DNA of 64,000 nt from Schistosoma haematobium (lineage: Eukaryota > Platyhelminthes > Trematoda > Strigeidida > Schistosomatidae), in NCBI RefSeq assembly GCF_000699445.3, contig NC_067196.1, positions 77,056,364 through 77,120,363 on the forward strand, given 5' to 3'. Shown here in pieces: positions 10,591 through 51,283 of this stretch (the first letter of the stretch is position 1; every line of letters begins with the position of its first letter). The position numbers and the translations under genes are program-made. Below the pieces are notes generated by a model. It was given only the letters and a program-made list of their open reading frames with translations. It was not told the origin of the DNA and made no database searches.

Positions 10591-10935
10591 TTATTATTAC
10601 TACTATATTAAATAAGTTCGTTTGATGTTTAACTTTCTTCAAGTTTTTTGTTTTTTGTTGTTGATAAACCTGTTCATTTCATTCTTGTTTTCTTGTGGAC
10701 ACTGATAAATCTTTTAAAAAAATTTTTGTAAACAATTTATTGTTTGACATCAGATAAGAAATGAATCACAGATTTCATTTTAATTCGAAATATTTATAAA
10801 CAAAGATATTCAGATATTACTAATGATACAATTTCAAAAGGGATTAAATTCAAGTGTAATTCCTATAATTAATATCCATATGATCATAGAGAATTTAAAA
10901 GAAGCAAAAACAAACATGTAACAAACATTTATTAC

Positions 10936-11287
10936 ATGCAATTAATTCCCATTATGAATTTAAATGAAGCCGGAACAAATATTGATGCAGAATAATATGA
11001 ATTTATTATATTTCGAGTTTTCTCGTCAGCTGCTTACAACCAAATGTTTCCTTGATTCTAAACACCAAATAACCTCTGACCTGTTCTTGCACATATGTAT
11101 ATATATAGTTATCATTGATAACCTTAGTCATTCCGCTGTTTTACATTCACTTATGTCAATTGTTCCACAATATTTCTTATCTCAATGTAAATTCTAATGT
11201 ATACTTGGTTGTAAGCAGCTGACGAGAAACCTCGAAATATAATGAATTCATATTATTCTGCATCAATATTTGTTCTGGCTTTATTTC
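10936..11287. mobile_element. PLE-end inverted dimer with 12-bp TSD
   Basis: Two arms of about 80 bp (about 10965-11045 and 11207-11287) are inverted copies of one another, around a unique core of about 160 bp. The unit is flanked by identical AACATTTATTAC repeats at 10924-10935 and 11288-11299. The arm sequence recurs at the ends of the PLE-containing foldback at 42.5-43.6 kb. Each arm carries CTGACGAG...CTCGAAA, a hammerhead-like core. Confidence 0.75.
11211..11265 (+). ncRNA. Hammerhead-like motif in PLE end
   Basis: GCAG, CTGACGA (11219-11225), a short poorly paired segment, GAAA (11234-11237), then an AT-rich quasi-palindrome and CTGC that can pair with the upstream GCAG as stem I. The core residues fit a hammerhead. 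Stem II is unusually weak, so activity is uncertain. The opposite arm carries the same motif on the minus strand at about 10985-11040. Confidence 0.4.
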
Positions 11288-11299
11288 AACATTTATTAC

Positions 11300-11405
11300 T
11301 CTGGGTTCGAGACCTCGAGTGAACGTCAACTCTGTGATGCAGGTACATCCCACTGATGAAACGCGTGTCCTGTATTCCACTGCTAGCCACTATCTATCTT
11401 TGCTT
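11300..11405 (+). mobile_element. SINE B fragment with deleted ribozyme stem II
   Basis: B-box-like GGGTTCGAGACCTC, then GTGATGCAGGTACATCCCACTGATG joined directly to AAACGCGTGTCCTGTATTCCACTGCTAGCCAC. About 15 bp covering stem II of the hammerhead are missing. It begins immediately after the target duplication of the preceding dimer. Confidence 0.75.
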
Positions 11406-11430
11406 ACTATTCTTCCATTACAAAAAATAT

Positions 11431-11690
11431 TATACAGGACCTATCAGTCTTACGCGCGAACGATTAACCTCTAAATCACTGAACCGACATTCAACGGTAT
11501 TAATGTCTAACTTCAACCAATCCACGAAATTGAGCGACACATCCATCATTGTCATCAGTGAATTACTACATTACGACAGACCCAGTTGAACTCCATTGGT
11601 CACTGCTCCTCACTAGAACTCCAGGATATACCTCTTGAAGCTGGTCACTAGTGAGCATATGATGATTATTATCAGAAGGAGGTTTTATGA
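11431..11690 (-). mobile_element. SINE A 5' portion
   Basis: Minus-strand tRNA-like region (CGCGCGAACGATTAACCTCTAAATCACTG on the plus strand) plus the upstream block, ending with TCTTGAAGCTGGTCACTAGTGAGCATATGATG, which matches the end of the first copy in the window. The ribozyme and tail are absent. Confidence 0.75.
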
Positions 11691-11694
11691 TGAT

Positions 11695-11830
11695 TTTAAT
11701 AATTTAATAGTTGAATTCATAAATCAATTGAAGCTAGACCACTATGGAAAACCTGGAAGCACTGGATGGCCGTTTCTTCCTAGTATGGGACTCCTCAGTA
11801 GTGCACAGTACCTATCGGTCTCGCACTCTT
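11695..11830 (-). mobile_element. SINE A 3' portion with near-intact hammerhead
   Basis: Minus-strand tail and ribozyme. On that strand CTGAGGA, GAAAC and an AUC cleavage triplet are present and stem I pairs. The closing base pair of stem II is lost (GTCC against GGAA). Upstream it joins abruptly to a few bases of tRNA-like sequence, so it is an internally deleted copy. Confidence 0.7.
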
Positions 11831-12072
11831 TCTTTAAAAAAATAATCACATAATTTACTTAATATTAATGAAATTAAACAAATAACTGAATTTTACAAAC
11901 CAAAATTTGTAAAAAAGATGTTGGAAACTATTTTTTGAAAACGATTGAATGAACCACTCAATTATACCTACAACACAAATCGTTAACAAGTATATTTCAA
12001 ATTCAATGAAGTTATATAAAGTATAGAAATGTGAGCAATGTGTAATAAGCAAACTAAGACAAAATATTTTTT

Positions 12073-12300
12073 TGTCATAATTTGTGGCCTTGTGCCCTGT
12101 TAATATATAACGTAATGATACCGCCAATTAGAAAACAGTGATTTAGCGACCGGACGAATGACGCGTAAACCCATACAAGCAATCTAAATTCCTTGACGGT
12201 CCTTATTCCTACCTAGCCGTGCTGGTTGAGTTCAATATGCCAATAGCAGCTTCCACGATATGAATCATGTATTTCATTTTTTTTATACTCACTACATGAA
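12073..12300 (-). mobile_element. LTR-2 fragment (from TATA box to 3' end)
   Basis: Minus-strand match to the downstream half of the LTR at 59012-59509, sharing the GATTCATAT block, CAACYRGCYNGGCTAGGT, the TCATTACGTTATATATTRACAGGGCAC block and the terminal TATGACA. The upstream U3 part is missing. Confidence 0.65.
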
Positions 12301-13734
12301 CTATTAACCCAAGGAGATTAACTTTTTTATAATGTAATTGTAAATTTTGAAAATACTAAAACCATAGTTTAGAAAATATATCTGCGCTATGGAGCACTTG
12401 TGATAAATAAATAAACAGAACTTACTGTTTAATTTAGAGGTTTAGTAGATATAGTGTTATTACAAGAAACATTCAAAAGTAATGTACTCTTAAATCATTT
12501 TTTATTCCTTAAAGGATGAACTATGGATAGATTACAACTGACCGCTTGCATCGCTGTAATGCATGTGAAATATGTACTACCTTAACAATTTTTTAGCTAG
12601 AACACTTAGGACAATCTAATATTACATATCAGTTCTCTACATTTATTATTGCAACTTATATCAAGCTGACTACGCCTGTAAACTAGTACGAGTACTGTAA
12701 TTATTATTTTCAGTATATATACTATTATTATTATTAGTGGAATTTTAGGGAGTCTTGTGATTCTTGAAACTTTTTATTTGTTTAGTCAGAATAAGAATCA
12801 AATGGTAAGTTGTTTTAAGCATTCTTTGTGGACATTTCCACGGTACATTGATTTGTCAAAACATTGTCGAGATTATTTTGTATTTTCAGAAGATTCCGTA
12901 CAGAGATATTGACAATTCCCAACAATCTTAAATATTAGTATTGTGAATAAAATATTTTGTATGTATAAAGAATATGAACCGAGATTGATCATTAACATAG
13001 CATTTTCAAATAAGCATCAAAAAGTACAATTGTATGCTCATCGGGATAGTAAAACTTTATCCTTGTTTTCATCATAAACTGTATAGAATAGTTTTTTTCT
13101 TTTTACTGTAAAACATTCTCTCCGTTTAAAACCATACAACTAATATCAACATATACATCGGATACAATAAAAAAGGAACTATGCATGTCAATGTGTTCAA
13201 CAAAGAACTTAATCTATTCTTATTTACTTATTAAATTATGTTATCATTTTTCAATATAATCCCATTAAAAATATTATTTTCAGTTGAATTATTTGTAACG
13301 AAAAAATATAACATCTCGAATTTGAATGAATAAAAGTAATCAAAAGCTACTTAACATGAAGAAACCCTTTAATAACAATGCAAATGTAACCACTTAAAAG
13401 TATCACATGGCATTGAATAACTGATTCAAATGAATGCTTAAAAGTATTTTATACAGATTTAACGAAGAGTATATTTTCTGATGATGATGATAATAACTGG
13501 TAAAGAATATCATAAATCAGTATATGGTATAAATCTTGCAAAACAGACCAAAAGTTCAGAAGAGTGTTTTATATCAGCATAATTAACAATCAACAGAGAA
13601 TGGTAAATATTTATTTAAAAGAATTTAACAATCGGTTATTTTTTCCTATGATACTTTGTTTAGTTGAACTGGTTTCCTTAAGAAGTGATCATTTAAATCA
13701 ATAAGAATGTTCTTTTAATATTAAGTGACATCAA
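12301..13734. other. No recognised feature
   Basis: AT-rich sequence with short runs such as ATTATTATTATTAG near 12725. Nothing else identified. Confidence 0.4.
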
Positions 13735-14165
13735 TTGTGGCTAACATTAGAATCTAGGATACAGGTTTCGTCTTGCAAAAGATTCTTTAGCTGAATGTAC
13801 ACACATTCCAAAGTTGATGTTCACAACGACATCCAAACACAGTACCTCCTGCCTCAAATGTTAAATGAGTTATCTACATAGATATTGATTCTAGATAGTC
13901 GCTGATCAATTGCAACCCTAAACATCAGTGGGAAAATTCAAACAACTAATACAAATGAATCAACATTCACCCTATTTCACACATCAGTGGTTATCTGGAC
14001 TCGGCAGGTAAATGCTGGATGCAATGAAGTTTGAAGTGAGAGGTGCTAGATTCACATTTTGAAGTGAACATCAAATTTGAGATGTGAGTGCATTCAGCTG
14101 ATTAGTCCTAAATAAATCAAACCACACATCCCGAATTCCACTGATAACTTCCTCTCACCCTACCT
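13735..14165. mobile_element. SINE B inverted pair, old
   Basis: A minus-strand copy (13735-13880; GAACATCAACTTTGGAATG and ACGAAACCTGTATCC on the minus strand) and a plus-strand copy (13988-14165; AAGTGAACATCAAATTTGAGATG then CAGCTGATTAGTCCTAAATAAATC) face head to head across about 107 bp. Both hammerheads are heavily mutated. No target duplication could be defined. Confidence 0.6.
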
Positions 14166-16024: not shown

Positions 16025-16028
16025 GTAT

Positions 16029-16311: not shown

Positions 16312-16315
16312 GTAT

Positions 16316-16956: not shown

Positions 16957-17020
<64 letters not shown>

Positions 17021-21103: not shown

Positions 21104-21273
21104 TTCATTATATTATGATTCACTTGGTATTGTTTACTTGAATCTTCACACTGGTGTTTAGAACTGCAAATGATCAGTCTCTTATTGGCATATGTGCAAA
21201 TTATGCAAACTGTCTTAATATTTTCCTAATTCACAAGCATTAAAAACAAAGATAGATAGTTGCTAGCAGTCGA

Positions 21274-21318
21274 ATCCAGGACGCGCTTTTCCTCCTATTT
21301 TGAACTCGTCAGCTGGAT
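21274..21318 (-). ncRNA. Smα-type hammerhead ribozyme, stem II damaged
   Basis: On the minus strand: ATCCAG, CTGACGA, stem II region, GAAA, GCGCGTC, CTGGAT. Stem I is perfect and the cleavage triplet is GUC, with predicted cleavage between 21279 and 21280. The closing pair of stem II is lost (G opposite G), so activity is doubtful. Confidence 0.75.
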
Positions 21319-21446
21319 GTGCCTGCCCATTACACAAACAGGTGGCTATCAGAACTCAGTAGCTAAGTGGATAACGCGATAGTATTTGAAGCCACCGGTA
21401 CTGGTTTCGAGTCCCAAAGTGAATATCAACTCTGGGATGCAGGTAC

Positions 21447-21491
21447 ATCTAGCTGACGAGTCCCAAATAAGACGAAACACGTATCCTGGAT
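21447..21491 (+). ncRNA. Smα-type hammerhead ribozyme
   Basis: ATCTAG, CTGACGA (21453-21459), GTC...GAC stem II, GAAA (21474-21477), cleavage triplet ATC, CTGGAT. The core is intact, stem I has one wobble pair and stem III is weak. In the published Smα family the short stem III is compensated by dimerisation. Cleavage is predicted after 21485. Confidence 0.8.
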
Positions 21492-21981
21492 TCCACTGCT
21501 AGCCATTTTCCATGTTCATTAAATTATGATTATAAAAAATTTATTGAATAATTTAATGATTAAATTACGTGAACCCTAAATCTACTCATTTTATTTTGAA
21601 TTTATTGTTGCTTTCTACCTAGTAAACACTTAAGTAAATTAAAATTAATTATCCATTCAAAAATAAGATTTGAACAATAAATTTATCATAATTTTTCTAG
21701 AATGTACAATGAACGACTATACTTAAATCATTTTACTACAACTAATTAACAGTTGTTCACTTGATGTTATCATTTAAACAGAAGCAACCATTTCAATTTT
21801 AATTATACATAATGATGTGAATACGTTTTATAAACGTTTGAGCAACTTATTGAAAAACTTTAGAAATTAAACAGGTCAAGTAAAAATATCCTCCCAATAA
21901 ACAATATTAATAAATCATTATAAATTTCACAGGTTGAAATCATGAGTTACCTGAAGCTAGACCACCATAGAAAATCTGGAA

Positions 21982-22027
21982 GCATTGGACGGCCGTTTCG
22001 ACATAGTATTAGACTCCTCAGCAGTGC
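21982..22027 (-). ncRNA. SINE A hammerhead, weakened stems
   Basis: Minus strand: CTGAGGA, GAAAC and a GUC triplet are present (cleavage predicted between 21987 and 21988). Stem I carries one mismatch and stem II pairs poorly. Confidence 0.65.
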
Positions 22028-22497
22028 GCATCCACGATCCCACACCCCGCGGGATTCGGACCCAGGGCCTACTGGTTTCGCGCGCGAGCACCTAACCATT
22101 AGACCACTGGGCCGGCATCCAGTGGTGTTAATGTCTAACTTCAACCAATCCACGAAGTTGCGCCACCGTAACCATCGTCTTCAGTGAGCTGATATCTCAC
22201 AACAGACCTGATTGAACCCCACTGGTAAGGGCTTCTCACTAGAACTCCAAGAGTATCTCCTGAAGTCTAACTTAATATCTAACTTAATAGTAAACAATGA
22301 ATGAAGATAGATTTTACTGGTTATTCCTGTCATGATAAGTTAGGTTTCACACATGGAATCATATCTGAAATACACAGAACACGAACTCATACATTTTATC
22401 AGATATAGAGACAAGCTGTGGTCTAGTGGTTAAGTACTCCCGCGCGAAACCAGTAGGCCCTGGGTCCGAATCCCGCGGGGTGTGGGATCGTGGATGC

Positions 22498-22543
22498 GCA
22501 CTGCTGAGGAGTCTCATACTATGACGAAACGGCCGTCCAGTGC
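22498..22543 (+). ncRNA. SINE A hammerhead ribozyme, predicted active
   Basis: GCACTG, CTGAGGA (22504-22510), GTC...GAC stem II (22511-22525), GAAAC (22526-22530), stem III ACGG/CCGT, triplet GTC, then CAGTGC. All invariant hammerhead core bases are present and stem I is a perfect 6 bp. Predicted cleavage falls between 22537 and 22538. It sits about 30 bp downstream of the B box of the same SINE, so a Pol III transcript would contain it. Confidence 0.8.
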
Positions 22544-22644
22544 TTCCAGATTTTCCATGGTGGTCTAGCTTCAATTGACTCATGATTTCAACCTGTGAAA
22601 TTTCTAAAAATCTCCACAAAACCCATTTAGATAAATCATTATAA

Positions 22645-25082
22645 GTTGTTTCCTCTCTTAGTTATCTTGATCCTTATATATAGGTATGTTTATATTTATA
22701 GCTATAAGGAATCTTTTATAGTCATTAAGTATGTATGTGTTTAAAAAAACTTTAAATAGCGCCAAATGATAGTTGTTAACCAAACAAATTTACAACACTG
22801 GGAACACTCTCAATTTTTAAATTAAAGGAACTTACATCAGGCAATTACATAGCGTTTTTATTTTACTTGGATAAGTTACCTGTTTGTTCTTAAAGTTTTA
22901 CAAAAGTTTCATTTAATTCTGTAACAGTTTAAATGTACTAGTGATATGTCCCTATTTGTTTTGAATTGCAGTTAATTGGTTTATAAATGTTTATGCGCTA
23001 GCTAACAATAAACTAATATGGGCTAAAGTATACTTCAAGGACGTGCTTAAAACAACTACGACGAATTTCCAGACAATTCATAGTCATCCAGAAAAAATTT
23101 TTATAGATAGGTAGTTTATGAAAAAGAAAACAATAAAAGTACAAATTTAGAAAATCTCTTAGTGTTTTCCACAAGTTACTCTGCCTATAGGTCGAAAAAA
23201 CAATGATATACTACTAGGTTATTCTTGTTAGGGTAAAACTTTAGGATTTGTGAGTGCCTTCTATATACCTGTTATATTTGAACTAGAAAAACGGAATTAG
23301 GAATTGGGTACATTTTGCACCAGAAGTTTTACTCCACGAATACAAATAATAATTTCAAGTGTTTTGAACAGTATACGAAAGTAAATTTACTGCTTGTGAC
23401 ACACAATTTGCATTGCGCAAAAGCCCAACAGTTGCGTTTTTTATTTTGATTGCCTCATTTCTAAAATATACTTATACCAACTATATTTTCCTATGATAAC
23501 ACATAAGGAAGAAAAATCAATAAAATATATAGCATTAAACACTATTTCCTAAGTCACTGAATGTTCTCTGATAATCATACTATGATAATTAGAAGTATTC
23601 AAATCAATGGACTAATCAAGGATTCCGAAAAATTACAGTTTAACGCAGGTAGAAATATATGAGCACAGATGACCGTTTTATATTTGGAATTCGTAATCAG
23701 ATGGAAGTCATATACAAATGGATCATTAGCTCCTACAATTACCAAACATACTCCCATCAAATATATTATTATACTCAACAAAACACTCTACAGTAATAAG
23801 TAAAGATATTCGCTTACAGTAACGTTGCATTACAAAATTGCAAGTAACTGTGTTATTGCTAAAACATTAGATAAATATTAATCTGTTATAAAATGTGTAT
23901 TGTAGTGAATTTTCGTAATTATCAGTATATACTTTTCCAAAATTCCATACAAGCATTGCAATCTTGCTACAATATCAACTGAAATCACTACAGATATTAT
24001 ATTTGATCATTTTCAATAGTTTGTTTTGTCTGGAGACCTCCGTCCTATTATCTAACTAGTCGCTTTCAAATACAATTCAATTTACCAAAACTTTTTGATC
24101 AGTATCGATATTTTTACAAAACTAAAGAGAGTACAAAAACTAGAATGTAACCAGAACCTTAAATTTGTCATATTTCAAATTACAAACGAATTAAATATAT
24201 ATTGCAATGTAGTCAGTGTGTAATTGCATTCAGAAACCATAATGAAAGCATTTGTATCAGGTACATTTGAAAACAGGTTGGTCTTAACTTTTATTCAAAC
24301 AATTTGCATTTAAATTTCATCCCTTTGAACTAGTTCGATTTCCGTACTTTGAAAAATCCATTTATATCGAATATTTAAATTCTAATTTAAATATCTTCCA
24401 TGGTACACTCGCTCATAATCCAATGACACCATCAAATACTTGTTGGTCTGTCTAAAAAAAGATTAAAAGAAATTTTATACTACAGCACGGCAGAATAGTA
24501 AAAGTATTTTGCTGACTGGTTTAATGACAAATTTCAATGAATAAAATCTCTGATTAATGATTTCTTATTTACAATGATTCTTGATCATCAATAACTAGAG
24601 TAAAATAAACTTAAAGCTATCAAGAGATATTTTTTTTATTTCAGACAAAAATATACACCCCAATATTACAACTTTAAATTACCTGCTGATGACTTGATGA
24701 ATAACTATACATAAATCTTGAGCGAGATCAAAGTAATAAAGTTAACACTTGATAAGAGCTGTCAAATATCACTATGCATTCAAGTATACAAGAAGTCTAG
24801 TTATATAAATCAATTAATGTCCATAAATCTAACGATGCTTCTTCAATTTGATGTCACTTACAAATAATTAAATTCGGTATTCGTATAAATACTCTGAAAA
24901 CGAATATTGTTTTTATTCACATAAGCACATCACAGTCATGTTTAACATTATTTTATATCAACCATGAAAATACATTTCGTACAATAAATTATCTCGTTAA
25001 TGTTTTATTTAAAAAACTTTTTTCGCACTTCGAATGAGCACAACATTTTTAATTGTTAATAAATTAACAAGAAAACACTTTT
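22645..25082. other. No recognised feature
   Basis: About 2.4 kb of AT-rich sequence. No ORF, SINE, LTR or ribozyme motif was recognised. Confidence 0.45.
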
Positions 25083-25425
25083 GATTGATATCATGAATGG
25101 ATCAATGTTAGACCACCATTGTAAACCTGTAATCACTAGACGGCTGTTTCGTCTTAGTATGGGACTTCTAAGCAGTGCACATTGACGATAATGTACCAAA
25201 AAGACTAGAACCCAAGACCTTCGGTTTTGCGCTAATGCTTAATCTCCAGACTACTGAACTGGCATCTAACGGTGTTAATATCTAATACCAACCAGTCCAC
25301 TATATTGCACCACTGTCTACCATTGTCTTCAATGAGTAACAGCCTCACAACAGATATATTTGATTTCCATAATTCGCGGCTTTCACTAGAACTCCAGGAA
25401 ATCCATTTTGAAACTGGTCATTAAA
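25083..25425 (-). mobile_element. SINE A copy, full length, mutated hammerhead
   Basis: Minus strand, with tail, ribozyme region, tRNA-like region and upstream block. CTGAGGA has become CTTAGAA, so the ribozyme is dead. It directly abuts an oppositely oriented SINE A fragment, forming a head-to-head pair. Confidence 0.8.
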
Positions 25426-25515
25426 GGTTAAGCAATCACGTGCGAGATTGAAGATTCTGGGTTCGAGTTGAGCGTGTGGGATCGTGGATGAGCACTTCTG
25501 CGGATTCCCAAACTG
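25426..25515 (+). mobile_element. SINE A fragment, right arm of an inverted pair
   Basis: AGGTTAAGCAATCACGTGCGAGA followed by a good B box (GGGTTCGAGTTGA) and GTGGGATCGTGGATGAGCAC. The copy stops inside the ribozyme. No target duplication was identified. Confidence 0.65.
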
Positions 25516-26140: not shown

Positions 26141-26629
26141 AGTTATAAATTTTGTAATTATCATTAATTCATTTCAGTTATCTGTTACTAATTAATCAGT
26201 AAACTTAAAGCTAGACCTCACAGATTGAGAAATTTACTATATTTATTACTTTAAAAAAAACAAATGCGACCAAACTTAAATTACCGACATTATATCATCC
26301 GTAAATATTGTTTTAAAATTTGGAAATGCCTGACTAAATTAACTGTATAATAACATATAACATTAGATTTAGTAATGCATTTATGAATAGAAGTTATACA
26401 TAAACATAATACATTTAACCAATGGTCAAAACTAAACTGAAAGAAAGTTTGAGAGAAAGAGAGAGAACTATGTAATTGTAGTTTGTTTAAAGTAAGTAAT
26501 AAACTGTTGTATAAAATATATTACATGTAAAATTAATACGATTAAATGTTTAAGAATTGTTTAAAGTTATCTAATCACAAGATATCTTCAACCAGTTACT
26601 GGTGGAATGAAATTTCCAATTATCTTAGT
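26141..26629. other. No recognised feature
   Basis: AT-rich, with a short GA-rich run near 26440-26466. Confidence 0.4.
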
Positions 26630-27380
<751 letters not shown>

Positions 27381-27515
27381 TAGTAAAATCTCAGAGAATG
27401 AATTTGAAGTAAATCCAACGTTTCACCCGGTAATCTCGTCTAAGCTTTTTCAAGGAAATGTCAGATGGCCAGGCGAAACGGATTTACTTCAAATTCATTC
27501 TCTGTGATTTTACAA
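27381..27515. repeat. Family E inverted pair
   Basis: Left arm TAAAATCTCAGAGAATGAAT... to CCAACGTTTCACCCGG and right arm CCAGGCGAAACGGATTTACT... to TCTCTGTGATTTTA are inverted copies of about 45 bp with a 3-bp gap. The left arm, read on the minus strand, continues into the family E stem-loop (AAAGCTTAGACGAGATTACCGGGTGAAACG). Confidence 0.65.
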
Positions 27516-28499
27516 ATACATTCTTCGTCCTTAATGTCATACATGAACTCGGTGCTAAATTACTGTGAAACTGGATATCTTAGTGTTAATTCATTCAGCA
27601 ATGCGGATTTATAATAACATGAAGGGTCAGACTCAGGAATTTCAGATCAAGGCATGATTATGATACCTTTAACAACAAATTTCTAATCTGATGGTTGACA
27701 TGTTCAGTTACAGTCAATTTTGGATAAAATGAGATCTTAATGAAAACAGCTATCTAACAACTAATATACAGAGATAGAATTGTCCTCAGTGTATACTACT
27801 AACACTGATCCATTAGTCTTCTGACAAAGTAATATATATTTGTTTATTTAGGCAAACAAATCCTTAATTTATCAATAACGACTTGATTATATGTAAAATG
27901 TGACTCTAAGTAGTATGTGTTCTGAAATCAACTTAGCAATGTGATAAATGATTTCAAACTGAAATTTTAATGTAAGAAACATTGGAATGATGATATTGTG
28001 AGTTCATATGATGATCGAAGACAACAATCTTCAGTTCAGAAAATCTAAAATACATCCATTACAATAATGAGATAATTATTTATCCAAAACTAAAACAATC
28101 TAATGTTACTTCATGAGGAATTTAACAACCATCGCTTACCATGTTTATTAATATTCGGAGCAATCACTAAATCTATGGAGTATTTAATTTACTTCTAATC
28201 AGTTTTATGATCCATTATTCGTTTAAAGATTCCCATCATATTAAAAGACTAATATTTGAACGAAGAATATTCTTTTCAACGTATTCTCTTTAGGTTCTAC
28301 AATTATATATCCAAATTAATAATCTGAAAAATGGCTAGGTTAAGGGCAAAGTACATGGTTTAAAGTATGTGAATTTAGGATTGTTAAATAAAAGGCAATA
28401 AAATTGTTAACGTTGATATGACTCAGATAGAATGTTAACTTGAATCATCTTATATGTTAAGTGAAAATTTAAGATCAATGATCAGAATAAATATCGGAC
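27516..28499. other. No recognised feature
   Basis: AT-rich; may include distal 3' sequence of the PLE that follows, but no boundary can be seen. Confidence 0.35.
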
Positions 28500-32319: not shown

Positions 32320-32615
32320 CCGAAATGAATCTTCCCATTGATGTTTAAGACTGCAGTTAATCAGTTTCTCATTGGTATATGTGCATACTGTGCGTATTGC
32401 CTCGGTACTTTCTTAATTCACAAACATTATAAGCAAAGATGGAGAGTGCCTAGTAGTAGTTAAGTGGATAATGCAATGAAGTTTGTAGCGAACGGTACTG
32501 AGTTCGAGTCCCAGAGTGAACATCAATTACGGGGTGCAGGTACATCCAGCTGACGAGTCCCAAATAGAATGAAACGCACATCCTGGATTCCACTGCTAGT
32601 CACTATCCATCTTAA
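32320..32615. mobile_element. SINE B inverted pair
   Basis: Left: minus-strand 3' body (about 32328-32455; TTCCCATTGATGTTTAAGACTGC through AAGCAAAGATGGAGAGTG). Right: plus-strand tRNA-like region, B box (GAGTTCGAGTCCC) and hammerhead (32456-32615). The junction falls at a GTGCCTAGTAGTAG sequence. No target duplication was recognised. Confidence 0.7.
32544..32588 (+). ncRNA. Smα-type hammerhead, stem II mutated
   Basis: ATCCAG, CTGACGA, GAAAC, ATC triplet and CTGGAT are intact. Stem II (GTCCC against GAAT) no longer forms a proper helix. Confidence 0.7.
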
Positions 32616-33234
32616 CTTAACGTTATTGCTTTGAAATATAATTACGAGTCATTATAAATTTGGTGAATTACATAATTCTGAAAATTTTTAATTTTCTTAT
32701 TACTATCACCATAGAAGAACATTTATAACCCAAAGCAACATACATATTCTTTTATAAGTTGTTCATACAACTAATAAATAATTTACTCTGTACAAAATCG
32801 TTCATTTAAGGTCATATCAAGTAATGTGTAACAAATTCTTATGCTTCACGTCGGGCTCACCAACTTTGTAGAGACTATTTTCCTCCATATCTGACTCGAA
32901 TAAATAGTATCCCATTAACTGAATATTCAATGCAGACTCAATCTCATTGTAGTACTATGAATTTACTAAAAATTATTCAAAAGCCTGAGTACCAGTTCTA
33001 CAGATAGCTTATTGTTAAAGATGAGTAAAATCCGCAAGCGTGCAGGAAGCAAGCACACAAGGAAACTAGTGAGAGTGTATATATATATGTGTGTGTGTGT
33101 TAAAAATCCCTATAAACTTATGAGTGTTAATTGGTTGTGCAGACATTATTGATTGTCTCAGTGTTACAACCAATAAGACATTGATGTAAAGACATGCGCT
33201 AAATCAGACTTACATATAATTTTACATAATGGAT
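32616..33234. other. No recognised feature; short dinucleotide run
   Basis: AT-rich, with a (TA)n(TG)n run at about 33078-33103. Confidence 0.45.
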
Positions 33235-38100: not shown

Positions 38101-38790
38101 ATATCGGTATACGCTTAAACCTAAATTATAATTATTTCTTACAACCCGATCATTTAACTTGATCAAAGAGTATTGTGCTGAAGTCTCGTTTAAATCAAAA
38201 CAAATACAAAGTCATCATTCACCTCTGTATATATATTAAGACATAGTATAATGAGTAATTATTCCACAAAAAAACTTAACCTTTTCTTTCAGCAATCTAC
38301 AAACACTAAAACACTATTTAGTTCTCATGCTTATGTATTATGTATGATTTTGTTTCCATTCATTTTATTTTAAGGTAGATTCATTGTTGTTCTGTAATAA
38401 TAGTTCTTACTATTTTCTTCATGAAATCATATTTCACTTCAACAAAAATCATATTGAAAATCTTCTATTTCTCTTTTGAATGACTTTGAAAAAGTTCAGA
38501 TTTTCCGGTTAATTTCAACAAGAATGAAAATTGTTAAAGAATGTTGTTTTAACTATGAAAGTTGAGTTTTAACCGTTGAATTAAATAGGAAAAGTTCAAT
38601 TACTGAAATTGATTCACTAAACTATGTTCTCATTAAAAAAAAAGAACTATCTCACTTTAATGAGTGTCTATTAATTGTAAGTATCAGTGCCAAGGTTGGA
38701 CTAGATAATTTCAAATACATTGAGCATTAGGTAGAAAGTTAATAATAAATATACTTTTTGTTATATTCTGATGATTAGAAAAATGGGTTT
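38101..38790. other. No recognised feature
   Basis: AT-rich; nothing identified. Confidence 0.4.
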
Positions 38791-38794
38791 TTTC

Positions 38795-38832
38795 AATGTT
38801 TCGTGACTTGGTGTAAGCCATTTCTTCAGAGT
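38795..38832 (-). repeat. Family E hammerhead-like stem-loop
   Basis: Minus strand: CTGAAGA, then TGGCTT ... AAGTCA pairing, then CGAAAC. Same layout as 44440 and 62400. Confidence 0.5.
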
Positions 38833-39072
38833 AAATAAATAACTAAAATAAAAGTAACACAAGTTTAAATAGTACAAAGAAAACAATGCAGAATTTTTTT
38901 GGTACAATGAAAATCATAATAGGTCTGAATATGTAAATGTATTAATTAGAAGTTGGGCATGAAAGATGAAGAATGCATACATTTGTAATATGAAGTAGTA
39001 GGGTTGAAACTATGTGTGTATAGATTGTGTGGAAAATAAATACTATCAGATGTGGTTGTTTGAATAAATAGT

Positions 39073-41817: not shown

Positions 41818-41821
41818 CTGT

Positions 41822-42498: not shown

Positions 42499-42540
42499 CC
42501 ACGTTCCCTTTATCATCTTAAAGAGAGTAAAAACAAAAGT

Positions 42541-42602
42541 TGGTGCAGAATAGTATAAATTCAATATGTTTCATTAAATTCTCATCAGCTGATTACAACC
42601 TA
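42541..42602 (-). ncRNA. Hammerhead-like motif in PLE end
   Basis: Minus strand: GTAATCAG, CTGATGA, weakly paired segment, GAAA, quasi-palindromic stem, then CTGCACC. Partner of the motif at 43465. Confidence 0.4.
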
Positions 42603-42954
42603 TTTAATATTTCAAAATCAAAGTTATCATATAAATTGATACACTTATAAATACGAAAGTGATTAAAGATGAATATGTGTATCATAATGTAGAGAAGATT
42701 CTAATAGAAATTGTCATAAAAGTATTTTGTTTCAGATAAATAAATAAAGTGTGAGGAGGAATGTTCCAGAACATCAAACTAGCGATAAGAAATCATAGAG
42801 TAAACAAACATTAAATGACTGTGTAAGGAAATAACTGAAAACAGATTAATGGTAGTAAAGAAAGGTAATGAGTTGAAATCAATCAATACGAATGAATGAC
42901 AATTATGTAGTCAAAACTTGAGAGAAAAATTAAAATAATGAGCGATGCAATAAA

Positions 42955-43065
42955 GAGGAAGACATATTACTACATTTTTGAACATGTAGATCAGGTGTTA
43001 GACGTTTGATCGCTATAGCTTCAGTTAATTTCAGGAGGTTGGAATCAGCTCTATGTATACAAAAA
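42955..43065 (-). pseudogene. PLE GIY-YIG C-terminal fragment
   Basis: The minus-strand frame reads RADSNLLKLTEAIAIKRL and then TPDLHVQKCSNM. This matches the pattern of the PLE endonuclease C-terminus (compare the domain ending at 63754). Only the last part of the domain remains. Confidence 0.65.
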
Positions 43066-43464
43066 GAGACAGTAATAAAACTTTCTTTGCCCTGGTAACA
43101 TTACCCGCCCCCCATTAATTAATTAATTAATTTATTACGTCATTCACTATTCCAACTCTTTCTGAATTTTAAAATTACATCATTCATAACTGACCGACTT
43201 CAATTGATATCTTTGTTTATTACCATTAATCTTTTTCCAGTCACTTCATCATATAATCATTTAATGTGTTTTAATTTCATGAGTTCTAATGTTCTGGAAC
43301 CTTTCCTCCTAAACTTTATTTGTCCGAAACAAAATTTTATGATCTCATTAACTCTAACGGAATCTTTGCTACGTCATGATACATATATTCATCTTTCATC
43401 ACCCTCGTATGTATAAGTATGTCAATATTTGTAATAACGTTGATTTTCAAATATTTTAGGTTGT

Positions 43465-43516
43465 AAACAGCTGATGAGAACCTAACGAGATAAAGTCGAC
43501 TGATACTGTCCTGCAC
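43465..43516 (+). ncRNA. Hammerhead-like motif in PLE end
   Basis: TAAACAG, CTGATGA (43472-43478), AACCTAACGAGATAAA region, then ACTGTC and CTGCACC. A GUC cleavage triplet and a short stem I are present. The GAAA element is disrupted to GAGATAAA in this copy. Confidence 0.35.
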
Positions 43517-43798
43517 CAATCTTTGGTCTTGCTCTCTTTAAAAAAGTAGTTGTATAGACGAAACATTGTTTGGTAACATGATATTGGCTGAAATTTGAAA
43601 TACCATTTAAAACAACTTTGGCATATTCAAATATGTTTGAACTAATGGAGTGGATATCCGACTTCTGGAATCAAAATCTGCAACCGTGACTTATGGCATG
43701 ACTTTCTATTTGAGAAAGGAAATCAGCTTCAGTATTACCGATCATTTGAATAATGTTAATTGTGAATGAAATAACATTAAAAAAATACCATATCTATC

Positions 43799-44199: not shown

Positions 44200-44436
44200 C
44201 AATCCAAATCCTTTCAAGAGTTACGAGCATTTTATTTATGAGTCGCTTTGATTGATTTCAACCACGTGACCACTGAGTTATTCAATAAATGAGGTGGTGT
44301 CAGAAAATTTGTTCAGTTTTTACAACTTAGTAATTAAAGAATCATATGTCTTTTTTTAAGACGATAAAATTTTATCTTTGGTGTTATTAATAAATAATAT
44401 TCCAAATAATATCCCAATCAGTAGAAAAATGAGATT

Positions 44437-44480
44437 TTCTAAAGTTTCGTGACTCAGTGTAAGCCATCTCTTCAGAGAAT
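44437..44480 (-). repeat. Family E hammerhead-like stem-loop
   Basis: Minus strand: CTGAAGA (44469-44475), stem with bulge (GATGGCT ... AGTCAC), GAAAC (44444-44448), then TTTAGAAAATCTCATTTTTCTAC, which is shared with the copy at 62400. Confidence 0.5.
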
Positions 44481-44559
44481 AAATAACCAAATCAATGTTG
44501 AACTTCTGAAATGCTAATATCTAACTGACGATCCGTTAATATTTATCGTCAATATCGAA

Positions 44560-46087: not shown

Positions 46088-46100
46088 TCTTCCCTCAATT

Positions 46101-46868
46101 ATTTTGATAGAGTTTTGTTCTCTGAGCTGGATGGTTTGGTCGTGTGACCATGCAGTTTTTTGTGTTCTCTTCCATGGGTGGTTTTGAGATCTTGATACGT
46201 TTCTTCTTTAGGGTGTTTCTTCTTTGTTCTCTGTGTCGTTTGCATGATATCTCGATGGCTGTTGTCAAGATTTCTAAATGTTCTGACGTGAGTATCCTTT
46301 GTAGCTTCATCTCTTGGTCCTCTATGACATGTTGGTATTTGCGGATCTTGTAGCGTGCATCCATTATCATTGGGTGTACCATTTTTCTTCCACCTTGCTC
46401 AGCTATTCTCCATCCTAATGGGCAGCTGATTGGAGGTCTATATCTTACACTTGTTAGTAGAACATGCTGGCGAAGACACTCATGGGGAAAACACAGTTGT
46501 TCTCGAATGAAGCCTGCCTTTTGGCGAAATTCTCCCATTTTCGAACAATGAGAAGCGTGCTACACTAATATGATCTTGAGATGGTGGAGAAGATTTATAG
46601 CTCAGATGGATGATTTTGATGGAGTTTTGTTCTTTGAGCTGGATGGTCTGGTTCAAACATTTAGAAATCTTGACAACAGCCATCGAGATATCATGCAAAC
46701 GACACAGAGAACAAAGAAGAAACACCCTAAAGAAGAAACGTATCAAGATCTCAAAACCACCCATGGAAGAGAACACAAAAAACTGCATGGTCACACGACC
46801 AAACCATCCAGCTCAGAGGACAAAACTCCATCAAAATTATCCACCTGAGCTACAAATCTTCTCCACCA
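46101..46868. mobile_element. Family D inverted composite with 13-bp TSD
   Basis: Left arm 46101-46570 (minus) holds the longest frame of family D, 147 codons at 46095-46538. It is basic and helical: MKLQRILTSEHLEILTTAIE, then KRHREQRRNTLKKKR, then PNHPAQRTKL. Next come a short minus-strand 3' end (46573-46652) and a plus-strand right arm (46655-46868) repeating LEILTTAIEISCKRHREQRR. Flanks TCTTCCCTCAATT (46088-46100) and TCTTTCCTCAATT (46869-46881) match at 12 of 13. The layout of the protein is reminiscent of the N-terminal region of PLE proteins, but I do not firmly recognise it. Confidence 0.65.
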
Positions 46869-47096
46869 TCTTTCCTCAATTTTGTTTTAATAATTCAATG
46901 ACACTCTAATAGCACTAATCACTTCTAAGTATTAATTAATTAATAAAAACTAATATACTTTAAATTAGATTCTGTCCATAAAACACATTTTTATTTAGGA
47001 GGGAACACTGCAATCGATTTGATAAATTTAAGAAATCTAAGTGAGTGTAAGAAGATTGATAATAAACTTATCCAAATTTATGGCACTATATATAGT

Positions 47097-47373: not shown

Positions 47374-47420
47374 CTATCAAGTCATTATTTCATTTCCGTT
47401 ATTAATTGTAATGTTATCAG

Positions 47421-47530
47421 AATGTGTTTTGTGGAGATTTTTAGAAATTTTCACAGATTGAACTCATGAGTGCTTCCAGGTTTTCAATGGTGGTCTAGCT
47501 TCAACTGACTCATGAGTTCAATCTGTGAAA
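47421..47530. mobile_element. Tiny SINE A foldback with ~16-bp TSD
   Basis: A plus-strand SINE A tail beginning GTGCTTCCAGG, a few bases past the ribozyme cleavage point, is preceded by an inverted copy of its own 3' terminus (TTTTCACAGATTGAACTCATGAGT against ACTCATGAGTTCAATCTGTGAAAA). Flanks ATTGTAATGTTATCAG (47405-47420) and ATTGTAATGTTATTAG (47531-47546) match at 15 of 16. Confidence 0.8.
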
Positions 47531-47546
47531 ATTGTAATGTTATTAG

Positions 47547-48010: not shown

Positions 48011-48014
48011 TTTC

Positions 48015-48292
48015 CAGGTCTGTTATGAGATAGTAACTCACTGAAAAAAAATGGTGCAACTTCTTGGATTGTTTTAAGTTAAACATTAACACTGTTCGAT
48101 GCCAGCCGGCTCAGTGATCTAGTGGTTAATTGTTCACCGGCGAGACCGATAAGTCTTGAAATCAAATTGCACGAGGCAGGATCGTGAATGACCACTGCTG
48201 AGGAGTGCCACAATAAAACGAAACAGCCGTCCAGTGCTTCTAAGTTTTCCATCGTACTTTAACTTTAATTGACTGATGAATTCAATGAATAA
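48015..48292 (+). mobile_element. SINE A copy with near-intact hammerhead core
   Basis: Upstream block, A box (GGCTCAGTGATCTAGTGG), decayed B box, ribozyme at 48192-48237 and tail. CTGAGGA, GAAAC, GTC and stem I are intact. Stem II (GTGCC against AAAAC) is weak. Confidence 0.8.
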
Positions 48293-48915: not shown

Positions 48916-49315
48916 CTCACATGCAATTGAGTTTGTTCTCATTTAACTCAGTTTAAGCCCTTTTGTTAACTTATTTATCGGACAAAGTCATCCGTACTAT
49001 AACAGCTTATTGTACCTTTATTATTGTTATGCTTGTATGAAATATGTATACTCGAACATAGTTTGCCGCCTACGCACATATTCGTTCTGCTAGCTTTATT
49101 ATTAGCTGCTTAATTGATTCGATGATCTATTCATTTTCCTATATATATATATACATGTACATTTACACTCTACACACTCTCAGTTAGCTGACTCACTCAT
49201 TCACCTCACTGCTTTGTGCTCTGATTTATCTGCTAATAAAACTGTATTTGCTGGTTCTCTTTACCTTCTAATTTCAAACAGCGTTGAAGATTATATGGTA
49301 ACGGCTACGAGGGTG
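48916..49315 (+). mobile_element. LTR-3 copy (probable solo LTR)
   Basis: Shares with 51859-52270 the blocks CTCACRTGCAATTGAGTTTGTTC, TGTACCTTTAT and CTACGCAYATRTTC, a stretch CTGCTAGC through TTGATTYGATGATYYATTCATTTT, and a TATATATACATGTACATTT stretch. It has AATAAAACTGTATTTGC, a polyadenylation-type signal. There is no coding sequence nearby. Exact ends were not established. Confidence 0.55.
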
Positions 49316-49356
49316 ATTGGTTAACGAAGCACGGCCACTACAGACTCCAATATAAG

Positions 49357-49607
49357 TGTGGTGTGTGCTACTTATATTGACATAAGTAGTATATGATGTT
49401 AGTCGTGCACAGAAGGTTTGGCAGCAGAGAGACAAGAGGATCGAACAGTAAAGAATGGAAACAGAATGCAATTTGTATCAAACTGCAAGAACAATGAAGT
49501 CTGAGTCATTTTGAGACAATTGATGGATTGTTAGATTTTATTAACAAGTCTCGTAATTCTGTATTAAATACGTTCAATTGTCCCCACTGGTGTTCTTGTT
49601 CACTATA
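49357..49607 (-). mobile_element. LTR-1 solo LTR with 4-bp TSD
   Basis: Minus strand, 251 bp, with TAAG at 49353-49356 and 49608-49611. On the minus strand it runs TATAGTGAACAAG (one change from TGTAGTG) to CACACACCACA, and the stem-loop reads CTACTTATGTCAATATAAGTAG. It lies about 40 bp after the end of the LTR-3 copy. Confidence 0.75.
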
Positions 49608-49624
49608 TAAGTACATCTCATTTT

Positions 49625-49690
49625 AATAGTTGAGTTCATGAGTCAATTGAAGCTCGACAATCATTGAAAACTTGGGAGCACTGGACTGTG
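49625..49690 (-). mobile_element. SINE A tail fragment
   Basis: AATAGTTGAGTTCATGAGTCAATTGAAGCTCGACAATCATTGAAAACTTGGGAGCACTGGAC; only the tail and one stem I strand of the ribozyme remain. Confidence 0.65.
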
Positions 49691-49856
49691 GCCTTCCTCA
49701 AATTCATTTTACCGGAAGATATATAAAGAGAAAAAGTGAGTAAAGTAAATGTTTAGCCATTGATAAAATAAAACTTCCTAGTAGTTCACAAAATTTCGAA
49801 TGTCTCTCCACAAACATCTTCATAGTGAGTCATTAAAGAGAAATAATATATATTTG

Positions 49857-49935
49857 TAAAATCTCAGCGAAAGAATTTGAAGTAATTTCAACGTTTCGCC
49901 TGGCGATCTGGTTCAAGCTTTTTCAAGGAAAATAT
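49857..49935 (-). repeat. Family E stem-loop
   Basis: Minus strand: CTTGAAAAA (a decayed CTGAAGA), a GCTTG ... CAGGC stem (49914-49918 with 49898-49902), CGAAACG, then TTGAAATTACTTCAAATTC and CTGAGATTTTACAAATA. Confidence 0.5.
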
Positions 49936-50474
49936 AATTAAACAACAAAATTATCGAATATATATATCTTTAATGACTCACATTAACTCAGCGCCCAAAT
50001 ATTGTAAAACTATTCGTTCAAATTTAGACGAAAGTTCTTATTTATTTTCATAGTGACTTCAAAAGATTTATCATATACTCTACTAATTATTTTTAGTCAT
50101 CTCTATAATCTAGATAAATCTTTTCCCAAAAGCCTAAAAAGTAAGACAACGGAATAATAGTTGCAAACAATGTTGTACTTATCCAAAATGTAGTGAACTT
50201 CCATGTCTGAACCTTGTATATCTTCAATCTTAGGGTTATATTTTATCGTGAGTCATTTCTACCGTTACATTTATTACTCTGTGAACTTAATATTTATCAT
50301 TTATTTTAATAATTACTTACAACCAAGTAAATATATGTCTAACGATTTCCTTTACTGAAATGTTTGAAGATGATTAAATTATTATTCCATTTATCTGTAT
50401 TCTTTCTTGAAAACTAAGAAGTATTACTTGATAATTGACGATTCAAATTATAGAAAAATCAAACATTGTAGTGT
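49936..50474. other. No recognised feature
   Basis: AT-rich; nothing identified. Confidence 0.4.
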
Positions 50475-50477
50475 TCT

Positions 50478-50535
50478 TACACATAGTTCCCTTTATCATT
50501 TCGAAAAGAACAAGAACGAACATTCTAGCAGTTTA
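50478..50535. repeat. PLE-end fragment
   Basis: CACATAGTTCCCTTTATCATTTCGAAAAGAACAAGAACGAACATTCTAGCAG matches 63137-63189 beside the PLE-end motif there. The hammerhead-like part is absent. Confidence 0.55.
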
Positions 50536-50967
50536 GTGTTCGATATATTTTTCAGATATTTTTTTGTTTACTTATGTACTTTAATATTTTAAAAATTGGA
50601 TCAAGATTATTCTATGCAAAGTTGAAAAAATAAATAAAATATGACATTTTCTACAAATCTGTTTGTTTAGTCAACTACAATCCATCAAAATAAGAAGTCG
50701 TTGTTAAATAGTCAACATAAATAATTTCTGAACGACCTTTGAAAAATTATAAAAATTAACTTAACGAAATATATTTTTTCCGCTATTTTTTAATTATTTT
50801 TTTTATTTTTATTTTGGATATGACGTATTGTCTCAAATGTCTATTTGATTATTTTGTAATATATACATAGTTTTCTTATAAATATTGTATTTCCATCTCT
50901 AGGTGTTCTCAGTTATAGACACTTACCACAATTTTTAAATTAGTGTAGCATCATGAGAAGAGAATGA
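50536..50967. other. No recognised feature
   Basis: AT-rich, including T-rich runs near 50770-50815; nothing identified. Confidence 0.4.
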
Positions 50968-50980
50968 ATAATCAATTCTG

Positions 50981-51155
50981 ATGAAGTTTTGTTCAGTACA
51001 GTACGTGTGAAGCATTTCGAACATTTCACTTCTACCAGACGTTTGTGCTGATGATGTCGTTTAGATGAATGATGAAAGCTCCACGATCAAACCATTCAGC
51101 TCAGAGAACAAAACTCCATCAAAATTATCCGCTTGAGCTACAAATCTTCTCCATT
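50981..51155 (+). mobile_element. Family D foldback with 13-bp TSD
   Basis: Plus-strand family D 3' part (CATTTCACTTCTACCAGACG through GAGCTACAAATCTTCTCC) preceded by a ~20 bp inverted copy of its 3' region (TGATGAAGTTTTGTTC). Flanks ATAATCAATTCTG (50968-50980) and ATAATAAATTCTG (51156-51168) match at 12 of 13. Confidence 0.7.
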
Positions 51156-51283
51156 ATAATAAATTCTGTCAAAAAAACAATGACTGACATGATCAAATTA
51201 CTACTCTTTAATATTATTACTAATGATATTTAATTTATAATTGACATTATTAACAAAGACTGGATAAAGAAATACTATAAACT

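Follow-up and report, generated by a model that had tools for sequence, protein, structure and literature searches.

Inverted dimers within single target-site duplications

The window, a stretch of 64,000 nucleotides of Schistosoma haematobium DNA (NC_067196.1, positions 77,056,364 to 77,120,363), holds six insertions in which two arms of a repeat lie heads together inside a single duplication of 12-17 bp (Table 1). The repeats are two SINEs (A and B), a Penelope-like terminal repeat (P) and a further family, D. All six had been claimed in a preliminary description, and all are present; where that description had the 3' ends facing the target in most of them, we find that both outer ends are 3' ends at all six loci. 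Two of its readings were amended. The insertion at 46101-46868 retains its duplication and its inversion but is not a simple dimer, as it consists of two minus-strand pieces and one plus-strand arm. The inverted copy at 50981 stands, but its inverted tip is only ~14 bp long. Dimer boundaries were drawn by hand from alignments to other copies of each repeat, and p values of duplications come from 40,000 randomly drawn pairs of sites, simple repeats having been masked. In cross-pairings between flanks of different loci, a score of 10 was reached by 1 of 240.

Table 1. Coordinates of inverted dimers, their target-site duplications (TSDs) and further head-to-head pairs in the window
Feature	Position	Strand	Remarks
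P dimer, left TSD	10924..10935	.	AACATTTATTAC; 12/12 identity with 11288-11299; p 0.00017
P (Penelope-like terminal repeat) left arm, long 3' end	10936..11049	-	hammerhead-like core 11011-11029
P right arm, short 3' end	11205..11287	+	hammerhead-like core 11219-11237
P dimer, right TSD	11288..11299	.	
SINE B dimer, left TSD	21104..21120	.	full reading 17 bp, 1 mismatch; 13 bp scored, 1 mismatch, p 0.0018
SINE B left arm, long 3' end	21121..21326	-	hammerhead 21274-21318, Rfam RF00163 54.0 bits
SINE B right arm, short 3' end	21329..21514	+	hammerhead 21447-21491, Rfam RF00163 54.9 bits
SINE B dimer, right TSD	21515..21531	.	
SINE A dimer, left TSD	21910..21923	.	ATAAATCATTATAA; 14/14 identical; p 7e-5
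SINE A left arm, short 3' end	21924..22280	-	weak hammerhead 21982-22027 (26.8 bits)
Spacer between SINE A arms	22281..22417	.	no repeat match
SINE A right arm, long 3' end	22418..22630	+	hammerhead 22498-22543, Rfam
SINE A dimer, right TSD	22631..22644	.	
D insertion, left TSD	46088..46100	.	13 bp, 1 mismatch; p 0.0018
D left arm, outer 3' end short	46101..46578	-	with coding-like stretch 46095-46559
Second D tip	46579..46652	-	through own tail into coding-like stretch (partial tandem)
D right arm, long 3' end	46656..46868	+	
D insertion, right TSD	46869..46881	.	
Small SINE A dimer, left TSD	47404..47417	.	AATTGTAATGTTAT; 14/14 identical; p 7e-5
SINE A tip, long 3' end	47418..47471	-	by eye; end-placing script gave no placement
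SINE A tip, short 3' end	47469..47529	+	
Small SINE A dimer, right TSD	47530..47543	.	
D tip insertion, left TSD	50968..50980	.	13 bp, 1 mismatch; p 0.0018
Inverted D tip, short 3' end	50981..50994	-	~14 bp
D arm, long 3' end	51003..51155	+	hammerhead-like core 51048-51077, no Rfam detection
D tip insertion, right TSD	51156..51168	.	
Extra SINE B pair	4131..4383		
Extra SINE B pair	13738..14146		
Extra SINE A pair	18611..18900		
Extra SINE A pair	25081..25514		
Family F pair	27377..27536	.	TSD not detected; hammerhead-like core in F copy at 4476
Extra SINE B pair	32326..32620	.	TSD not detected
Extra P pair	42503..43543	.	left arm long, right arm short (by eye); TSD not detected
Extra D pair	55315..55581		

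Head-to-head pairs in the window and in a genome sample

Beyond these six, the window contains eight head-to-head pairs (Table 1), which are the 8 of 14 window pairs from which a convincing duplication is absent. Among neighbouring copies at most 300 bp apart, a count for which the tip at 50981 is too short, 13 pairs are head-to-head, 0 tail-to-tail and 3 tandem; raising the limit to 1200 bp adds one tail-to-tail SINE A pair. Tandem pairs are few, with the 3' end of one unit running into the next at 11419-11807 (SINE A) and 13902-14146 (SINE B). In a random sample of 20 stretches of 10 kb from the genome (200 kb), with pairs counted up to 300 bp, head-to-head versus tail-to-tail pairs numbered 15 versus 0 for SINE A (49 matches), 3 versus 0 for SINE B (9 matches), 1 versus 0 each for D and F, and 2 versus 0 for family G, the sense of which was set from its core. 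Up to 1200 bp, SINE A has 4 tail-to-tail neighbours in this sample.

LINE copies had been expected to lack the pattern, and the 16 LINE-query matches in the random sample include no inverted pair within 300 bp. The other controls gave 16 (E), 2 (H) and 0 (J) matches, and the E "pair" in L026 is one copy overlapping itself by 27 bp. Family G began as a control and was removed from the controls after its core and two inverted pairs were seen; with G kept, the controls would include these two pairs. The 23 control copies in the window, G included, form no inverted pair within 300 bp, and one E pair in opposite orientation is 428 bp apart. A family-blind search returned 31 inverted structures, of which 0 were assigned to a LINE query and 4 had no assignment; a LINE-like ORF lies ~130 bp away from one of these 4 (L019 5277-5620).

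LINE enzymes are the usual explanation for SINEs. The dimers could reflect twin priming, in which a LINE enzyme moves the SINE and a second primer, annealed internally to the RNA, gives a 5' inversion; the inverted piece then comes from further upstream in the same RNA and has an internal point as its outer end. Twin priming also yields inverted pieces within target duplications (PMC2837659), and RVT_1 and Exo_endo_phos ORFs are common in the sample. However, both outer ends are here 3' ends at two fixed sites and the arms repeat one sequence, and the sampled LINE-query matches and the family-blind structures behave as described above. We rejected twin priming because the same 3' sequence is found in both arms, and consider it very unlikely.

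Duplications are more frequent than chance: a score of at least 9 is reached in 9 of 20 random head-to-head pairs, with a null of 0.04 each, and the other 11 have no duplication of score 9. One of the nine is low-complexity (ATAAAAAAA), one, in the D pair of L010, is microsatellite-like, and that of L021 vanishes after end placement. Among SINE A pairs with placed ends, 8 of 14 have a duplication of score 9 or more (null 0.0077). Of 26 SINE A dimers picked by hand (19 from 38 loci found with a long-ended query, 7 from the window and random sample), 24 have aligned duplications of 10-18 bp that are 87% A+T. When the 38 long-query loci were scanned, 19 reached a duplication score of 12 by hand count, while in the cross-locus null score 10 is reached in 10% of cases and score 12 in 0.9%. 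Recent pairs are surrounded by a single duplication; in a large share of all pairs none can be detected. Copies 58504, 63445, L053 and L064 have a duplication with no inverted arm inside. When the flanks of 14 insertions were joined and used in a local search for empty sites, no copy spanned the join; two of the insertions gave matches, which were those loci's own right flanks.

One long and one short 3' end

The arms end at one of two 3' sites, the inner of which lies ~30-35 nt upstream of the outer in SINE A and D and ~130 nt upstream in SINE B. Of 19 SINE A pairs in the window and random sample, 6 had an unplaced arm and 1 was ambiguous (L016 4857-4964, short/short under the two-class rule); one long and one short end were present in 12 of the 12 clearly scorable pairs. 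Likewise, among the 38 SINE A copies retrieved with the long-ended query, 18 have an inverted partner, and all 18 partners are short and 0 long. In other words, a short inverted partner accompanies about half of the SINE A copies that most resemble the long arm in the window; a looser printed count of 21, taken as an inverted short end inside the left duplication, includes the weak L056 and L062. In 24 of the 26 chosen dimers, one repeat adjoins the short end or is only a few bases away from it, and the other repeat adjoins the long end.

For SINE B, all four pairs scored by eye have a long and a short end, and the same form is seen in 28 of 29 rows, but these loci were chosen with a long-left/short-right query. 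Exceptions in SINE B are 4131-4383 and L031 (both ends long), 13738-14146 (short at its two outer ends) and L007 (with a borderline right end); elsewhere, F in L022 is long at both ends, D in L010 is short at both, and a P pair in L022 is tail-to-tail. Apart from such exceptions, the tail in SINE A and SINE B dimers is present at one of the two 3' ends, as in Penelope-type insertions. If the two DNA ends use different start sites in SINE A dimers, the machine that inserts them would be asymmetric.

A fold-back or MITE-like DNA transposon with terminal inverted repeats would equally leave inverted arms within a target duplication. It was rejected because the ends are unequal, long versus short; moreover, the arms are truncated to different extents, some insertions with a duplication have one arm only, and box A/B-like motifs and hammerheads occur in the units. 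We regard its probability as close to negligible.

Junctions and 5' stops of the arms

The arms often abut or overlap slightly, with an overlap of 2-8 bases in 9 of 20 pairs. Their 5' stops are unrelated: as printed, with some spurious coordinates among them, 12 of 13 pairs have stops that differ by more than 10 nt. Junctions and arm lengths vary in SINE A, as does the side carrying the long end. A prediction that the short-end cDNA, having a head start, runs further was not borne out (short in 7 pairs, long in 5, equal in 1, as printed; the value for 47418 is a spurious match, and by eye its short arm runs further). Hairpin self-priming as a general route was ruled out, as the arms are not mirror images. 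L026 6389-6468 and L075, which resemble near-perfect palindromes, may be exceptions.

The arms could also have inserted independently of each other at a preferred site, or stem from later inversion or palindrome formation; SINEs are dense in this region and their duplications are AT-rich. Independent insertions were rejected on the single duplication around both arms and the fixed orientation (13:0 in the window). The fixed partition into long and short ends, the lack of mirror symmetry and the separate 5' stops also speak against this group of explanations. We judge these routes highly improbable.

Alternatively, the inverted dimer could be a stable lineage that moves as a unit, its architecture going back to a few joining events. 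The SINE B dimer of the window is matched over almost its full length at about 38 places, and among 28 SINE B loci selected by likeness to that dimer some junctions recur (105/1 three times; 111/1, 81/26, 90/21 and 108/1 twice each; 125/1 in three loci, two of them apparently one duplicated locus). However, the same 28 loci have ~20 distinct pairs of junction coordinates by our own count from approximate BLAST ends, and SINE A dimers vary in junction, arm length and long-end side. We find a stable lineage very unlikely.

Hammerhead ribozymes and other features of the families

Ten matches to the type I hammerhead (RF00163) lie above the Rfam gathering threshold; SINE B accounts for six of them, at 36-55 bits, and SINE A for four. 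Hammerhead-like cores number 26 in the window versus 3.9 expected, and by coordinates 24 of the 26 sit in the pair-forming families A, B, P, D, F and G; head-to-head pairs and hammerhead cores thus occur together. The core pattern lacks specificity in the random sample: there are 38 matches versus 12.9 expected, of which 17 fall in families A, B, P, D or G and 2 in matches of control queries, while 19 are unassigned. The core CTGANGA..GAAA is found in four copies of P and two of D. Even at E<=10, Rfam gave no match to the cores of P, D, F or G, and those of P, D and F have no unusual fold by energy, folding being uninformative here. For the D 3' end, 199 of 200 shuffles fold less well than the sequence itself, and on reading the structure its inner start site lies in a loop.

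SINE A and SINE B have box A/B-like motifs, seen by eye, and no ORF was seen in either. The tRNA origin given in the preliminary description would rest on such motifs; ARAGORN found no tRNA in the window. At E<=1e-4, the SINE 3' ends do not match the single LINE 3' end that the window contains. Ten ORFs tested for domains gave RVT_1 (7), Exo_endo_phos (2) and DUF6451 (1), with no GIY-YIG domain and no Penelope ORF among them. The D ORF at 46095-46559 has no Pfam match and one match to an S. haematobium hypothetical protein. D and P, of which the window contains terminal parts only, are called Penelope-like by their structure, not by a reverse transcriptase. SINE B is very probably of the SMalpha/Sjalpha kind (W36.2), an assignment based on the literature (PMC8490949), not on sequence comparison.

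A model for the insertion of inverted dimers

We suggest that, with high probability, each dimer arose in a single insertion event, the enzyme being a Penelope-like reverse transcriptase/endonuclease that would work in trans when it copies SINE RNA and in cis for Penelope-like terminal repeats such as P and D. In this model, the enzyme would cut AT-rich DNA in a staggered way, leaving two 3' overhangs of ~10-18 nt, and both 3' ends would prime reverse transcription on the element RNA. One DNA end would start at the outer site, giving the long end, and the other at the inner site, giving the short end; for SINE A, one RNA, or a pair of RNAs, would offer the outer site to one DNA end and the inner site to the other. 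Each cDNA would halt at its own point, the two cDNA ends would be joined, often via a few shared bases, and gap filling would duplicate the target. We infer the identity of the enzyme, the use of SINE RNA, as monomer or multimer, as the template, and the order of these steps.

Two-ended priming followed by cDNA joining had been put forward in the preliminary description, and it fits the duplication around both arms and the outward 3' ends as well as the unrelated 5' stops, the abutting or overlapping arms and the lack of inverted pairs among LINE-query matches. The link to Penelope elements drawn there has become stronger because the arms differ by a "tail", as published for Penelope elements (PMC3846280 and PMC11167929), and because hammerhead or hammerhead-like cores are present in the families that form such pairs. 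For one Penelope-like protein, cleavage and extension of both strands have been described, with starts at two adjacent sites that explain its "tail"; in vitro, the start site did not differ between strands (PMC11167929). The long/short rule is a mechanistic constraint that this in vitro work alone does not predict.

It also seems likely that these SINEs represent a class with a Penelope-like partner, not a LINE partner, which is marked by hammerheads and two reverse transcription start sites, and that an asymmetric machine inserts the SINE A dimers. The insertion mode of Penelope-like elements (PLEs) is poorly known. If our model is correct, the many SINE dimers would be a record of Penelope-type insertion, including the geometry of the cut, the start sites and the site used at each end. 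PLEs have been proposed as movers of animal hammerhead retrozymes (PMC7229834). If hammerhead SINEs are clients of Penelope, this hypothesis would gain a genomic test and SINEs a second kind of partner.

Comparison with known systems

As in LINE-1 twin priming, inverted pieces lie within one duplication, but here both arms begin at the 3' end and the same sequence is repeated. Metazoan non-LTR retrozymes are similarly small and non-coding, with type I hammerheads, tandem copies and target duplications (PMC7229834 and PMC7761336), whereas the word "inverted" occurs 0 times in PMC7229834. In a limited search, no earlier report of inverted SINE dimers or Penelope-driven SINEs was recognised among titles and the beginnings of abstracts. 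SINE B resembles SMalpha/Sjalpha (W36.2) as a type I hammerhead in a schistosome SINE-like repeat (PMC8490949); inverted SINE dimers, a two-site 3' end and mobilisation by Penelope do not form part of those descriptions as far as they were available. SINE A and SINE B differ from PLEs in that no ORF is seen and box A/B-like motifs are present, and the tail of SINE B is ~130 nt instead of 30-40; SINE A duplications are 10-18 bp versus the 8-10 bp quoted for rotifer PLEs. By contrast, the dimers share with PLEs that have a GIY-YIG endonuclease (Penelope/Poseidon, and Perere-10 of schistosomes) the inverted and direct repeats in one duplication, mostly head-to-head, the tail at one of two ends, partial tandems, AT-rich targets and hammerhead motifs (PMC3846280 and PMC11167929).

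Results

Inverted dimers in the window and in the random sample

In the window (C2:77,056,364-77,120,363 of a 400-Mb assembly; G+C 31.8%), six insertions had been presented in the preliminary description as inverted dimers or copies with an inverted tip, with 3' ends facing the target on both sides in most, and one 12-17 bp duplication per insertion. Direct reading of all six loci bore this out. Each consists of two opposite arms of one family (SINE A, SINE B, P or D) with their 3' ends outward, i.e. head-to-head, and a single direct repeat of that length encloses each (p 0.00007 to 0.0018 against 40,000 random site pairs). Among window neighbours at most 300 bp apart in SINE A, SINE B, P, D and F (56 merged matches), 13 were head-to-head, 3 tandem and 0 tail-to-tail. 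Head-to-tail SINE A and SINE B units are also present, as expected from multimeric or circular templates.

Positions of features in the window and at sampled loci outside it (L-numbers)
Location	Position	Feature	Details
Window	10936-11287	P dimer	
Window	11419-11807	SINE A, head-to-tail	unit's tail continues into start of next
Window	13902-14146	SINE B, head-to-tail	unit's tail continues into start of next
Window	21121-21514	SINE B dimer	
Window	21924-22630	SINE A dimer	
Window	26625-27152	tandem repeat	minus strand largely an isoleucine codon run
Window	38671-38847	G copy	
Window	44383-44492	G copy	
Window	46095-46559 (-)	D, coding-like stretch	one partial match, S. haematobium hypothetical protein, 64% over 29%
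Window	46101-46868	D dimer	
Window	47421-47530	SINE A dimer	one arm unplaceable by script; long/short by eye
Window	50981-51155	D dimer	
Window	55582-58490 (-)	LINE-like element with RVT_1 ORF	plus-strand T-rich end abuts D copy at ~55581; no duplication found, ends set by eye
Window	62383-62562	G copy	
L010	1574	another repeat	core like CTGACGAGTGCTAACTAGTACGAAAC
L011	8821	same repeat as in L010	core like CTGACGAGTGCTAACTAGTACGAAAC
L014	7079-7449	G head-to-head pair	no duplication found
L016	4857-4964	SINE A pair, ambiguous	short/short if two-class rule applied
L022	1364-1497	P pair	3' ends facing each other
L026	3213-3459	G head-to-head pair	duplication 15 bp, 1 mismatch

The random sample comprised 20 stretches of 10 kb (200 kb of 400 Mb; N at 5,000 of 200,000 bases). 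Within 300 bp, the 49 SINE A matches formed 15 head-to-head, 5 tandem and 0 tail-to-tail pairs, with 4 additional tail-to-tail neighbours at up to 1200 bp; the 9 SINE B matches formed 3 head-to-head and 0 tail-to-tail pairs, and D and F one head-to-head pair each. The P pair in L022, the sole tail-to-tail pair within 300 bp among SINE A, SINE B, P, D and F, could have originated by self-priming at an RNA 3' end. As the preliminary description had anticipated, LINE queries gave no inverted pairs in this sample (16 matches), and the sole "pair" among 18 matches of the control families E and H was a spurious self-overlap. The 4 matches of family G, initially a control, included 2 inverted pairs. 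This family has a hammerhead-like core, CTGARGA..GAAAC, and with sense set by this core both pairs are head-to-head. A family-blind inverted-repeat scan of window and random sample found 31 structures, 27 of which overlap SINE A, SINE B, P, D, F or G (a few being joins between copies from separate insertions), 4 are unassigned and 0 were assigned to a LINE query.

Reverse transcriptases close to that of the LINE-like element in the window are recorded as Streptococcus dysgalactiae proteins (P0014, P0015, P0023), probably reflecting trematode contamination in bacterial assemblies.

One duplication encloses both arms

Direct repeats exceeded chance in the random sample, with scores of at least 9 around 9 of 20 head-to-head pairs (SINE A 15, SINE B 3, D 1, F 1) against 4% of random sites. 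For SINE A pairs with alignment-placed ends (window and random sample), the figure was 8/14 against a null of 0.8%, one of the 8 being low-complexity. The long SINE A arm of the window, used as genome query, gave 5,406 candidates, of which 40 were scored. Of these 40 best-scored matches 38 were used; the two excluded were the query copy itself and a match on C10. An upstream repeat scoring at least 10 was found at 27 of these 38 loci, against 10% when flanks of different loci were compared; the 18 loci with an inverted partner all scored at least 11 (rows read by eye). For 24 of 26 hand-chosen SINE A dimers aligned in a single orientation (19 from the 38 loci, 7 from window and random sample), duplications were obtained that measure 10-18 bp and are 87% A+T. 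In these dimers the inverted short end lies at most a few bases from the left repeat, and the right repeat follows the long end immediately.

The SINE B loci were chosen for their similarity to the dimer in the window; their 29 rows represent 28 loci, since that of the window is listed twice, and L002 and L006 are similar. Duplications scored at least 10 in 15 of the 29 rows, with mostly differing letters, and there are about 20 distinct junction coordinate pairs, some repeated. This points to many events, although some dimers may have moved as a unit.

Two classes of 3' end

SINE A copies align into two 3' end classes, short ends near ...TTCAACCTGTGAAA and long ends about 33 nt beyond, at ...CTCCACAAAACCCATTCTGATA. 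In SINE B, the short end is near ...CATCTTTGCTTA and the long end about 130 nt beyond; D and P also have two 3' ends. By eye, each of the six window dimers has one long and one short arm. By a scripted long/short rule, 12 of 19 SINE A head-to-head pairs (window and random sample) were long/short, 6 had an unplaceable arm and 1 was ambiguous. In the independent set of 38 long-ended SINE A copies, inverted partners, tested for both end kinds, were found in 18: 18 short and 0 long. Exceptions to the rule exist in other families. The start sites look alike by eye (CTGTGAA and CTGATAA in SINE A; CTCCATCA and CTCCACCA in D).

Hammerhead motifs

Ten type I hammerheads scored above the Rfam threshold: SINE A holds 4 of them and SINE B 6, and SINE A copies have additional weak matches. 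In the window, the CTGANGA-GAAA core was counted 26 times where 3.9 were expected, and the coordinates place 24 of the 26 in SINE A (10), SINE B (4), P (4), D (2), F (1) and G (3). The cores in P, D, F and G had no Rfam match even at E<=10, and ribozymes in these families are therefore candidates at the motif level. The random sample is less telling (38 cores, with 12.9 expected; 17 lie in SINE A, SINE B, P, D or G, 2 belong to control matches and 19 are unassigned). Judged by its core, the repeat in L010 and L011 is perhaps a further hammerhead family.

Discussion

Based on this anatomy, i.e. the placement of the repeats, the two 3' sites, the 5' stops and the junction overlaps, the mechanism proposed in the preliminary description, priming from both 3' ends of a staggered break and joining of the cDNAs, remains the most likely. 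The left arm reads on the top strand as antisense DNA that begins directly behind the left repeat at a 3' site of the RNA, the product expected if the top-strand 3' end primed reverse transcription. The right arm would be the equivalent product primed by the bottom-strand 3' end, and the target repeat would be the 3' overhang pair after fill-in. In other words, both ends of one staggered break would prime, each at a different RNA site, and the two cDNAs would then be joined. The 5' stop points of paired arms are unrelated (approximate coordinates); 9 of the 20 pairs of the random sample show a 2-8 base overlap between the arms, and others a gap of a few bases. These junctions look like end joining at microhomology.

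Penelope elements have been described with minimal hammerheads in their terminal repeats (reviewed in PMC7761336), reportedly first by Cervera and de la Pena and by Lunse and others. Hammerhead SINEs of schistosomes, SMalpha and Sjalpha, are likewise known (PMC8490949), and Penelope elements have been proposed, from co-occurrence and tandem structure, as possible movers of animal hammerhead repeats (PMC7229834). Inverted pairs with one tail are already known in Penelope elements; on structural grounds, P and D are putative members. At the level of titles and opening lines of abstracts, neither inverted dimers of SINEs nor a long/short rule for them turned up in earlier work. Thus, what appears new is a putative product of Penelope-type insertion with SINE RNA as its template.

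The two-ended priming suggested for the dimers agrees with the account of a Penelope-like protein in vitro (PMC11167929). According to PMC3846280, Penelope inserts have inverted terminal repeats, a short target duplication and an optional 31-bp tail at one inverted repeat, and a host gene was mobilised in trans between Penelope-type repeats. The SINE dimers described here are the same insertion product.
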